Notes under the pieces: generated by a model | The model's input: the letters and a program-made list of their open reading frames with translations, nothing else | Database searches by the model: none | Told to the model about the DNA's origin: nothing | Program-made: the position numbers and the translations under genes | IMG/VR virus record: IMGVR_UViG_3300032083_002175 | Location: 1-26,838 of that record | DNA length: 26,838 nucleotides | Source: a virus | Strand: one strand, 5' to 3' | In this document: piece after piece, positions 1,022-11,621 of the stretch | How the letters are laid out: the number at the start of each line of letters is the position of its first letter | How positions within the stretch are numbered: the stretch's first letter is position 1

Positions 1022-1054
1022 GCTTGTTCAAGCCCCCCCTTTTGGTCAAAAGGG
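1022..1054. other. Two tandem stem-loops at the end of the primase-helicase gene
   Basis: CCCTTTTGGTCAAAAGGG (1037-1054) is a 7-bp stem with a 4-base loop, and the TGA stop of the primase-helicase (1046-1048) lies inside it. A second stem, GCTTG/CAAGC (1022-1026 and 1029-1033), follows on the minus strand. Neither is followed by a clear U-run, so this is not a textbook intrinsic terminator. It may stabilise the 3' end of the transcript. Confidence 0.45.
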
Positions 1055-3355
1055 TATTTCACTGTCAGAGTGGAACGAACGCACCAGGCCGCCTATTGGC
1101 CGTTTGTCGTCATAATTTCTAAGCCAAATGTAGTGGTTACGCCTTGTTGATTGTATTTTGACCTTCCTTTTTTTATACGGTTGATAGCCCATTTCCAACA
1201 ATATCGCCGACAATGGCCTTGGCTTCGGCAGCTCTATATCACCCATTTTGCAAAGATCTCTTAGCCAAGTGATATCAATAACTTTACTGTTAATGATCTC
1301 GCACTCATGCTCACTAATTGCATCATCCAGCGCTTGGCGCTCAGGACTGATTGACAGGTCTATCATCTCCTGCTTTGCTCTCGTTTTGGGCGCACGCCCT
1401 CGGGGTGAAAAACTTTCCGATATCTTTCTGTTTTTCAAAAACCAGGCTAGTTCTCCAGCTTGGTCGGATTCCAAAGCATCGTATAAATCCTCATAATACT
1501 TTTGTGCTGCCAGCTCGCCGCCCAGTTCCGAGAACATTTGCTCTTCGCTTTGCCAGCGCGAATAAAGCACACAATAGCGCCTGTCCCCATCGTTAATAGG
1601 GATAGCATCTTTATGGTTAGTGAGTAAGAAGTATGACGAGAAATTGGGGACAGTCCTTTGGTCACGGCCTTTTTCTTCAATGGCCACCATCTTGTTGGTT
1701 ATAAAGGGCTTCATTTTATCTAACATTTCATATTTGAATTCACCCTTAACCTTAATCTCCTCCACGGCAACCACCGTGGAGCCATATGCCCAACCAGTGA
1801 AACGTCCAGTAAAATCCCCATTGCTGATAAGTCTTGCGTTACTACCCAACAACGTTTGGAGTACATCGTAAAAATATGTTTTTCCTGTGCCTTGCGTCCC
1901 TTGTAGTAATACGGCCCAATTGATCCGCTGTCCAGGGTTCTGACAAACGTATGAAAGCCAATCTAGGAATATTGTTCTATCCCCCACGTCATCAAATGTC
2001 AGCTCAAGGTGTTTATTGAACAATCCGACAATCTCCGAACCGCCCTCAGGTTCAATTGGCACTATTCCTCTGTCGCGGTATATGTTCAACATCGCCTTAC
2101 CTTCGCAATCGAATAACGTGTTGGCGCCAGGCCAGTACAGGGTGTCGACAATCGTAGGGATCTTCACTGTGTTTAAAGCGTATTGGGATGCCGGTATTTC
2201 AGCCATTTCACATTCAATTTCACGGTCATATTTAGCGTTAAACGCCTCTCTTTTTATGCTATAATCTAACTCGATGTTTATAAACTCCATCGCCGTCTCG
2301 CAATAGACCCAACCCAAAAGCCATGATGGTTTTTTAGTAGTCCCTCCACTAATATCACGGCTTTTGGATAGGAGCTTACGAACATCGCCCACAGGCAATT
2401 TGACACCTAATAGTTCTTTGAACCTCCCTTGATACGCTTGTACAATCATTTCGCGCCCTATGTTGTCAAGAGTCGCGCTTTTAATCTTTTTAACTAGATC
2501 GTCGCTTTGCAAAGCTTCCTCGTCAGCAACCTTTATTTGATCTATCAGGTTCGCGCTAATGTCCTGCGCTATAACACCTTTCCCGCCAGCTTTCTTAATA
2601 ACTGTCGCAAACGTGACCGCCCGCTTCCCTTGGTTATCCCACGACTCCCAACGCTTGCGGTTCTGCCCTTCGTCGTACGCCGCAGCATCCCTACGACTGA
2701 ACTCGTCGAACAGCTCCCAACCATCTTCACTGCCGCCAGTTTCGTGGTAAATGCCCATTCCGATATCAAGCCAGTCACCCCCACTACCGGCCATAGAATC
2801 CGGTAACGCTTCAACATACGCTCGAAGCTCATCCGCCCCTAGGCCCAAACGCTCGTTATTCAACGCCTCTTCAAGCCCGAAGTCATCGTCTTCAACAACT
2901 TCAAACCCGATATCCAACGTAGCCAACGCCTCCTCACCCAATTCCGGTAAACAATCAGGATCACTTAGCGTTTCATCAATACCGAACAAAGTCAGGTCTT
3001 CGTACCCTTTACCGCTAGCTATATAGCCTTTACCGCTCGCTCTGGTATCAAAACCTTTAACGCCGAATAGATCTGAACCCTGACGCAACTGACACCCGTT
3101 AGGTATCCGAAAAGCGTAATGTTTGCCGCCGTTGCGTGTCTTTTGTAGTTCGGCCTCATGCCATAAAAGTTCGCAACCTAAAACTGCTTCAACATCCGCA
3201 CATGTAACGTCTTTATATGTGTCCAGATCCAACACGATTACCCCGTCGGGTATCATGTAACCCACAACAGCGCTATCAACAGCGCCTTTGTAAGTTTTCC
3301 AACCGCCAACAGCCGGTGATTTGTCATCTTTGCAAGGGAATTTAATTAATGTCAT
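1046..3355 (-). CDS. Bifunctional primase-helicase (prim-pol plus PriCT-2 plus D5/DUF5906-type SF3 helicase)
   Basis: Makes primers and unwinds DNA at the phage fork. With ATG at 3355 it has 769 residues. The N-terminal prim-pol domain shows a hydrophobic strand ending in DLD (Asp43, Asp45), a GGKHYAF motif (His79) and a later Asp near 103. A PriCT-2-like segment spans about 172-245. The C-terminal ATPase has Walker A GTQGTGKT (486-493), an acidic Walker B pair (Glu532-Glu533) and a LLTNHKD...DRRY sensor/arginine region near 580-605. The start is uncertain: in-frame TTG (3373) and ATG (3364) also exist; I chose 3355 because MTLIKFPCKDDK resembles relatives' starts. It overlaps the upstream regulator by 14 bases. 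Oddly, it ends in SDSEIPF, very like the tip of bacterial SSB. Confidence 0.9.
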   Translation of the reverse strand: MTLIKFPCKDDKSPAVGGWKTYKGAVDSAVVGYMIPDGVIVLDLDTYKDVTCADVEAVLGCELLWHEAELQKTRNGGKHYAFRIPNGCQLRQGSDLFGVKGFDTRASGKGYIASGKGYEDLTLFGIDETLSDPDCLPELGEEALATLDIGFEVVEDDDFGLEEALNNERLGLGADELRAYVEALPDSMAGSGGDWLDIGMGIYHETGGSEDGWELFDEFSRRDAAAYDEGQNRKRWESWDNQGKRAVTFATVIKKAGGKGVIAQDISANLIDQIKVADEEALQSDDLVKKIKSATLDNIGREMIVQAYQGRFKELLGVKLPVGDVRKLLSKSRDISGGTTKKPSWLLGWVYCETAMEFINIELDYSIKREAFNAKYDREIECEMAEIPASQYALNTVKIPTIVDTLYWPGANTLFDCEGKAMLNIYRDRGIVPIEPEGGSEIVGLFNKHLELTFDDVGDRTIFLDWLSYVCQNPGQRINWAVLLQGTQGTGKTYFYDVLQTLLGSNARLISNGDFTGRFTGWAYGSTVVAVEEIKVKGEFKYEMLDKMKPFITNKMVAIEEKGRDQRTVPNFSSYFLLTNHKDAIPINDGDRRYCVLYSRWQSEEQMFSELGGELAAQKYYEDLYDALESDQAGELAWFLKNRKISESFSPRGRAPKTRAKQEMIDLSISPERQALDDAISEHECEIINSKVIDITWLRDLCKMGDIELPKPRPLSAILLEMGYQPYKKRKVKIQSTRRNHYIWLRNYDDKRPIGGLVRSFHSDSEIPF

Positions 3356-3557
3356 TATCTTCATCCGCTTCAATTAAGTTGAACGCCAAGAACTTGCCGC
3401 CTGTTATCCGTTCAATCTGAATGGCCCGTTTTGGCGGGAAATAGCCATTGTCTTGCCATTGTGTAACGTTCACCCGATGAACCCCCAGCGCCCTAGCCAA
3501 CGCGGCTTTACTGCCGAAATGCTCAACAACCTTTTGGAATTCTTTTCCTAATTTCAC
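3342..3557 (-). CDS. Cro/YdaS-like helix-turn-helix regulator
   Basis: A 71-residue DNA-binding protein. The segment SKAALARALGVHRVNVTQW (about 15-33) is a helix-turn-helix, and the following PPKRAIQIERITGGK matches the pattern of YdaS/Cro-type phage regulators. It probably represses the divergent rightward replication operon, its own promoter, or both. The start codon is GTG with a GAGGTAAA ribosome-binding site just upstream. Its last codons overlap the primase-helicase start, so the two are co-transcribed. No partner CI-type repressor is visible, so lifestyle cannot be judged from this gene. Confidence 0.85.
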   Translation of the reverse strand: MKLGKEFQKVVEHFGSKAALARALGVHRVNVTQWQDNGYFPPKRAIQIERITGGKFLAFNLIEADEDNDIN

Positions 3558-5127: not shown

Positions 5128-5661
5128 ATGGCTAAATTTAAAGTTAAAAACGCTCGACTTTCTTACCCTTCACTTTTTCAAACTGCGTCTTTCTCTGGTG
5201 AACCAACGGGCAAATTTGAATGCACATTCATTCTTGATAAGGATGGGCACGCTGACGTGATTGAAAAGCTTCAAGCCGAGATACAAAGACTTCAAAAAGA
5301 TGAACTAAAGAAAAAGTTACCCGCCGATAAGATTTGTTTGAAAGATGGCGACGACTTAGACGACGAAGCTTACGCTGGTAAGATGACCATCAAAGTCTCT
5401 ACCAAAAAGCGCCCAATAATTTTAGATCGTGATAAGACACCACTAATTGAAGAAGATAACAAGCCTTACGCCGGTTGTTACGTTAACGGTATCTTCAGCC
5501 TGTGGGCGCAGGACAACAAATATGGGAAGCGTGTTAATGGTCAGCTCGACGGTGTTCAATTCTACGCTGACGGCACGCCGTTCGGTGATGGCGGCGCAAG
5601 TTCCGACGACTTCGACGCCTTTGGCGACGATGATTACGACGATGATGGAGACGACTTTTAA
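5128..5661 (+). CDS. DUF2815 family single-stranded DNA-binding protein
   Basis: A 177-residue protein of the DUF2815 family, which is regarded as a phage ssDNA-binding protein with an OB-like fold. The start MAKFKVKNARLSYPSLF is characteristic of the family. The body ends in a very acidic tail (about 158-177, almost all Asp with Gly) finishing in DDF. In bacterial SSBs a tail of this type recruits partner proteins. It is encoded right after DUF2800, as in other phages with this module, and its stop codon abuts the next ATG. An AAGGT ribosome-binding site precedes the start. Confidence 0.9.
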   Translation: MAKFKVKNARLSYPSLFQTASFSGEPTGKFECTFILDKDGHADVIEKLQAEIQRLQKDELKKKLPADKICLKDGDDLDDEAYAGKMTIKVSTKKRPIILDRDKTPLIEEDNKPYAGCYVNGIFSLWAQDNKYGKRVNGQLDGVQFYADGTPFGDGGASSDDFDAFGDDDYDDDGDDF

Positions 5662-10996: not shown

Positions 10997-11371
10997 ATGA
11001 ACATGAACGATTTAACAATTGCCCAAGCAAAAGAATTAGTCGCTCTGTTTGGTGAGCAACAATCGACAACTGTTGATAACAAAATGACAGGCAAATACGT
11101 CATCGTCAGATGCAAAGACGCGGGAGTCCATGCTGGGGTGCTCGAATCTTACAGCGGTCGTGAAGCAGTGCTAACTGAGTCGCGTCGATTGTGGTACTGG
11201 GAGTGCGCTCAAGGCGCTTTTTTGTCTGCCGTGGCAGTGTATGGGCTGTCAGACGAAAGCAAAGTGGGCGTACCGCTATCAAGAATTCATTTAACTGAAA
11301 CGTGCGAGCTTATCGAGTGTTCATACATCGCAGAGCGGTCTATTCGTGATCGGGCGAATCACAATGAATAG
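10997..11371 (+). CDS. DUF6948-like phage protein
   Basis: A 124-residue soluble protein. The block GKYVIVRCKDAGVHAGVLE, followed by RRLWYWECAQGAFLSAVAVYG, matches my memory of the DUF6948 family of phage proteins of unknown role. It has the operon's promoter and an AAGGAA ribosome-binding site. Its last 8 bases overlap the start of the Gly/Tyr repeat protein, a pairing that suggests the two are used together. The family name is from memory and not verified. Confidence 0.8.
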   Translation: MNMNDLTIAQAKELVALFGEQQSTTVDNKMTGKYVIVRCKDAGVHAGVLESYSGREAVLTESRRLWYWECAQGAFLSAVAVYGLSDESKVGVPLSRIHLTETCELIECSYIAERSIRDRANHNE

Positions 11372-11621
11372 ATACGGCGACGGCTACGGCAGCGGCTACG
11401 GCAGCGGCTACGGCTACGGCTACGGCGACGGTGGCGGCAAAGGCGACGGCGACGGTGGCGGTGGCGGCAAAGGCAAAGGCTACGGCTACGGCTACGGCAG
11501 CGGCTACGGCTACGGCTACGGCAGCGGCTACGGCTACGGCTACGGCGACGGTGGCGGCAAAGGCGACGGCGACGGTGGCGGCAAAGGCCACGGCTACGGC
11601 GACGGTTGGGGCAGCGGTTAA
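11364..11621 (+). CDS. Gly/Tyr/Asp/Ser low-complexity repeat protein
   Basis: An 85-residue protein made almost entirely of GYG, GSG, GDG and GGGKG units after MNRYGDG. It has no hydrophobic core or known domain and is probably disordered; Tyr/Gly repeats of this type can be sticky or phase-separate (family-level knowledge of low-complexity proteins, not shown here). It starts inside the DUF6948-like gene. Use of GGC and TAC codons is almost uniform, unlike the neighbours. A 60-base block is repeated exactly with a 120-base offset, showing growth by internal duplication. The opposite strand is also open (Ala/Val-rich) as a by-product of the repeat. Confidence 0.75.
   Translation: MNRYGDGYGSGYGSGYGYGYGDGGGKGDGDGGGGGKGKGYGYGYGSGYGYGYGSGYGYGYGDGGGKGDGDGGGKGHGYGDGWGSG
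11401..11580 (+). repeat. Exact 60-base repeat at 120-base offset inside the Gly-rich gene
   Basis: Bases 11401-11460 are identical to 11521-11580. Around and between them the sequence is built from GGCTAC, GGCGAC and GGCAGC hexamers. This is a coding minisatellite prone to expansion and contraction by slippage or recombination. Confidence 0.95.

Follow-up and report, generated by a model that had tools for sequence, protein, structure and literature searches.

The window, meaning the whole stretch of DNA analysed here, is a 26.8-kb IMG/VR virus record (26,838 nucleotides). Its primase-helicase gene comes after a Cro-like gene and is divergent from a module encoding a DUF2800 exonuclease, a DUF2815 SSB, an exonuclease, a DNA polymerase, an endonuclease in the VRR-NUC position and an SNF2-type helicase (Table 1). 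This module is common to Vibrio phages 1.017.O and LP.1 and to the Casjensviridae. Elsewhere in the window, a low-complexity ORF on the plus strand (11346-11621), possibly a gene, is rich in Gly-Tyr/Asp/Lys repeats (GYGSGYG...GDGGGKGDG).

The primase-helicase is encoded by a minus-strand ORF (1046-3373) of 775 residues, or 769 when counted from the ATG at 3355 (MTLIKFP...), a start that is backed by homologue starts in Vibrio phages. The alternative TTG start at 3373 adds six residues, and residue numbers below follow this longer, 775-residue frame. The protein matches phrog_1156 (DNA primase), and among solved structures the helicase region of the phage NrS-1 polymerase (6k9c, 6k9e, 6lrb) comes closest to it in both sequence and fold. 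Prim-Pol, PriCT/HBD and a DUF5906/SF3-like motor are joined in a single chain, the arrangement that defines the NrS-1-like class. Pfam reports only primase and helicase domains and no OB-fold SSB domain (PF00436) in this protein; the bearer of the tip is a Prim-Pol/PriCT-2/DUF5906 primase-helicase and no SSB. Its C-terminus, ...GLVRSFHSDSEIPF, is followed directly by a TGA stop, which bears out the sequence-only reading that the protein ends in SDSEIPF (...SFHSDSEIPF, then stop). The resulting DSEIPF-COOH end sets a hydrophobic-Pro-Phe group after acidic residues, as in the C-terminal tip of bacterial SSB (SSB-Ct), and is itself weakly acidic (DSE). None of the other likely genes of the window has a -PF end.

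Table 1. Features of the primase-helicase gene and of the phage SSB gene in the window (residues in the 775-residue frame)
Feature	Positions	Strand	Basis
Primase-helicase: Prim-Pol, PriCT_2, DUF5906 motor, C-terminal winged-helix-like domain, tail	1046..3355	-	Pfam, PHROGs, fold match
Prim-Pol domain, residues 33-118	3020..3277	-	Pfam 1.8e-4, 0.3 bits under the curated cut-off
PriCT_2 domain, residues 184-262	2588..2824	-	Pfam 4.9e-12
DUF5906 ATPase motor, residues 490-599	1577..1906	-	Pfam 9.9e-21
Variable linker after the last winged-helix-like strand, residues 751-766	1076..1123	-	18% mean pairwise identity in clade
Short tail helix with conserved aromatic-His pair F767-H768, residues 760-769; overlaps linker end	1067..1096	-	AlphaFold2
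SSB-Ct-like tip DSEIPF, residues 770-775	1049..1066	-	Sequence; pLDDT 52 (last five); -PF in 25/36
Phage SSB, DUF2815 = Enc34_ssDNA-bd, T7 gp2.5 type, acidic tail	5128..5661	+	PF10991 1.3e-34; phrog_112 gp2.5-like SSB 5.1e-47

An AlphaFold2 monomer model of the primase-helicase, built on a 42-row alignment, has a mean pLDDT of 88.7. In this model the winged-helix-like domain runs to about residue 751, and the tail helix reaches a pLDDT of about 87. The last five residues lie outside the folded domains and drop to 52, so that the tip is not buried in the modelled monomer; burial in a modelled fold had been named beforehand as an outcome that would speak against a docking role.

Conservation of the tip among homologues

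Homologues were collected from viral contigs, genome contigs and named phages, and are mostly metagenomic contigs; those from viral contigs were found with primase and polymerase alignments, a single-protein query having given no match. In a tree of 59 homologues, dereplicated at 85% identity and aligned with the tail left out, the window protein branches off first within a clade of 36 members (support 100; 99 for the remaining 35 together). Within this clade, 25 members end in -PF, six in acidic or polar residues plus F, two in acidic residues plus L or I, and three have no such end. The terminal Phe is thus present in 31/36, and the common form is [FY]H-acidic-x-[V/I/A/C]-P-F. Ends seen in the clade include FHDDPDFVPF (L085), FHDDPHFAPF (L018), FHDGDEIVPF (L087) and WHEGADDFNDVPF (L020) and, among MAGs, FHDGDNEPPF (L220, Methyloprofundus) and FFDKDEAPF (L219, Tolumonas). 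The -PF class has a mean net acidic count of +1.96 over the last nine residues, and H768 and F775 are invariant in nine aligned homologues.

The sequence-only reading had proposed to look for a tip that is kept where its flank drifts, and this is the pattern found in the clade of the window. Mean pairwise identity is 74% at the last residue and 62% over the last two, against 18% in the 16-residue linker; positions -5 to -3 stand at 11%, the winged-helix-like domain at 45% and the motor at 54%. A conserved tip therefore stands behind an unconserved flexible linker, part of which is a short helix in the model. Members keeping -PF share about 31-50% identity with the window protein, and the same end occurs in 22 (0.86%) of the 2558 non-primase ORFs in the fetched loci that are 150 residues or longer, compared with 25/36 clade homologues. 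A second -PF tail, of unlike sequence, is present in the sister clade (AEEEGGVYVPF and AEEDGEYIPF in L075/L098), of whose 11 members nine lack a -PF tail and end shortly past the folded domain; the tree alone can't separate gain from loss here.

The nearest cultured relatives, the Vibrio phages, do not carry the tip and end in ...HRIYSKLY or ...HRIYSK. A large subclade (L182-L217) and two Methylococcales contigs end in KEHYGI, KKYYKQV or similar, and the primases of Casjensviridae have an acidic-Leu end in place of -PF. These C-termini rule out a tip universal in the family, just as the homologues carrying -PF rule out one unique to this phage. Unrelated ends among homologues, which had also been named as evidence against a docking role, do occur in the Vibrio phages and in the L182-L217 subclade, while the clade of the window mostly keeps the tip. 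Since these phages do without it, the tip is dispensable for the enzyme as such. Its conservation elsewhere is evidence of constraint, not of a partner. Kept beyond its flank and left unburied in the model, the tip has the support expected of a real SSB-Ct-like docking motif, and its conservation suggests that it is probably a true docking handle for a partner protein.

Candidate partners of the tip

Which partner would such a handle serve? As the leading explanation, put forward tentatively from the alignments and the model, the last six residues would serve the phage primase-helicase as a conserved and flexible SSB-Ct-type docking peptide, most likely for host SSB-interacting proteins. By homology, an NrS-1-like motor ring would present several tips on flexible linkers beside the fork, a ring-shaped oligomer for the window enzyme being inferred from NrS-1 only. 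Each tip would then bind an SSB-tip pocket, in which a hydrophobic hole takes the C-terminal Phe and a basic rim faces the acidic residues. The likeliest owners of such pockets would be host SSB-interacting proteins such as RNase HI, topoisomerase III, RecG, Pol III chi, PriA, RecO or ExoI, which might be brought to the phage fork or kept there, the fork itself carrying a coat of phage SSB that lacks an IPF-type tail. In bacterial SSB, IPF is the part of the SSB-Ct needed for function, and binding is tightened by the proximal Phe and by the Asp residues (PMC10143822). The tip peptide alone suffices to bind RecO, PriA and chi (PMC7145534), and RecG figures as a host SSB-interacting protein in PMC10164576. 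Tips of the FHDDPDFVPF kind are built like the end of E. coli SSB (DFDDDIPF), with an aromatic residue, an acidic run and hydrophobic-Pro-Phe, and the SSBs in MAG bins with -PF homologues end in DFDDDIPF, although the bin is weak evidence of a host. Recruitment or blocking of host SSB-interacting proteins, the role originally suggested for the tip, is a plausible candidate function.

The tail of the phage's own SSB bears on this choice. The DUF2815 protein ends in ...DDDYDDDGDDF and unites an Enc34_ssDNA-bd domain with an acidic C-terminal tail, as Enc34 T7-type SSBs do; Enc34 ORF6 is itself a T7-type SSB, in a group for which an acidic tail is normal (PMC5686142). The sequence-only reading was right that this protein ends in an acidic run plus Phe (DDF). 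Because the protein is of an SSB family with an acidic tail as the norm, the DDF end is ordinary and is ruled out as part of the same trick. Of the dereplicated contigs, 22 pair a -PF primase with an SSB whose tail could be read. Eleven of these SSBs have the terminal F but not the Pro, one ends in PF, and the other ten close with something other than F, their endings including FM, FS, FV, FD, FN, FG and LV. With ten of these 22 phages having an SSB that does not end in Phe, the primase tip appears to be constrained apart from the SSB tail. The idea that the tip copies the phage's own SSB tail is not supported in the clade of the window, where SSB ends differ. Host SSB-interacting proteins are favoured because the Pro-Phe is strict and because the tip is kept irrespective of how the phage SSB ends.

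As for the SSB tails themselves, those of the -PF-primase contigs L018, L020, L143-L147, L184, L200, L210 and L219 either run one or two residues past the Phe (DDFM, DFFS, GFMN, DIFG) or are Phe-less (DDLV).

A phage-encoded partner ranks closely behind a host one. The tip could instead dock the phage's own polymerase, SNF2 helicase, DUF2800 exonuclease or SSB and so couple that partner to the helicase ring, its likeness to the host SSB-Ct being convergence on a common pocket chemistry; we consider this possible, if somewhat less likely. In T7, the C-tails of gp4 and the tail of gp2.5 both make contact with partners from T7 itself (PMC12593628, PMC5686142). In HK620, phage-encoded Sak4 depends on the NDYPPF tail of the SSB, which acts on it (PMC5928155), so that a -PF end is no proof of a host partner. 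In Casjensviridae and their kin (L135-L141, L033, L037), an acidic run followed by Leu closes the primase as well as the SSB, with Met or Ile sometimes taking the place of Leu in the SSB (primase/SSB: ETEL/EQEL in JS26, DDEL/DEDL in FoX4, DNEL/DDDL in L037), whereas bacterial SSBs end in Phe. Tails that match each other and depart from the bacterial Phe end suggest a shared phage-side pocket in those phages. Against such a tether in the clade of the window, Pro stands in the primase tail and, except in L167, not in the SSB tail, and many clade SSBs have no terminal Phe. Moreover, the matching of primase and SSB tails comes down to few independent events: a co-variation test on the tree had four to six independent pairs, too few to reach significance once the tree is taken into account. 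Phages without the tip retain the same polymerase, SSB, exonuclease, VRR-NUC and SNF2 genes.

Regulation of the enzyme by its own tail is unlikely. The tip would here compete with DNA for a basic site on the same enzyme or a neighbouring subunit, as the tails of gp32 and gp2.5 do; acidic tails of phage SSBs act in this way, and tail-less Enc34 ORF6 gains dsDNA binding (PMC5686142). However, a strict terminal Pro-Phe with variable acidic positions fits a Phe pocket better than charge masking, and the tip has low confidence in the monomer model. It is very improbable that the -PF end has no function and was inherited by chance, as its loss in several lineages might suggest, given its retention at such low overall identity while the preceding residues drift, its background rate of under one in a hundred and the second, unlike -PF tail of the sister clade.

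SSB-like tips on other phage proteins

The SSB-Ct is commonly regarded as a property of SSBs, and no account of an SSB-like tip on a phage primase-helicase was found in the open-access literature. Other ORFs with an acidic-PF end are few, and several of them are non-SSB replication proteins, namely phrog_16 SF2 helicases, phrog_947 proteins, a polymerase and a VapE-type primase. A scan of viral contigs for DDDIPF followed by a stop gave, among the matches listed, mostly SSB-like or unassigned small proteins, together with phrog_16 helicases, at least one phrog_947 protein and at least one Erf protein.

The full bacterial SSB-type tip, DDDIPF, ends the phrog_16 SF2 helicases L045:3-1559, L057:432-2264, L273:4836-6536(-), L307:870-2774, L315:3115-4845 and L311:1-840. 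The phrog_947 proteins (DNA polymerase processivity factor) L077:8678-9844, L083:8648-9853 and L304:6511-7689 end in DDEIPF, MDDDIPF or EDDDIPF, and an Erf-like annealing protein (L255:12671-13486(-)) in GDDDIPF. Small proteins ending in DDDIPF, one of them weakly DUF736-like, are found at L297:8163-8456 and L276:3117-3593(-) and in L281 and L317.

The window may offer one example of SSB-like tips being used more widely, and other DDDIPF-ending phage replication proteins (SF2 helicases, processivity factors, Erf) may rely on the same trick. In its boldest form, which we regard as doubtful, the phage lineage would show the host-SSB tip on its primase-helicase in place of its SSB. A helicase ring with several tips would then trap host genome-maintenance enzymes at the phage fork, and the IPF-less phage SSB would keep them off the remaining ssDNA. 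If this were true, phages would redirect the host SSB interaction hub by relocating its docking peptide, and a peptide assay could reveal the host enzymes that such phages need or must block. The tip could also be used to search phage genomes for unrecognised proteins that dock SSB-interacting proteins.

Comparison with known systems

The closest parallel is the SSB-Ct itself (MDFDDDIPF in E. coli), which is likewise C-terminal, flexible and acidic, ends in I/V-P-F, often has an aromatic residue before the acidic run and follows the folded domains after a linker that is not conserved. Differently from the SSB-Ct, the tip in the window is carried by a primase-helicase and not by an OB-fold SSB, has fewer acidic residues, and follows a linker of about 16 residues with a short helix in place of the long disordered linker of SSB. 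The NrS-1 phage polymerase, which combines Prim-Pol, a helicase-binding domain and a ring-shaped helicase, shares the domain order and the DUF5906-like motor with the window protein, a likeness of domains and motor at 16-17% identity. In HK620, too, the -PF tail of a phage protein docks a DNA-metabolism protein, but there the tail is carried by the SSB and the partner, Sak4, is phage-encoded. T7 gp4 provides the example of an acidic C-terminal tail on a phage primase-helicase, where it binds the gp5 polymerase; the primase and helicase families are different, and it is the conserved Pro-Phe end that marks the clade of the window.
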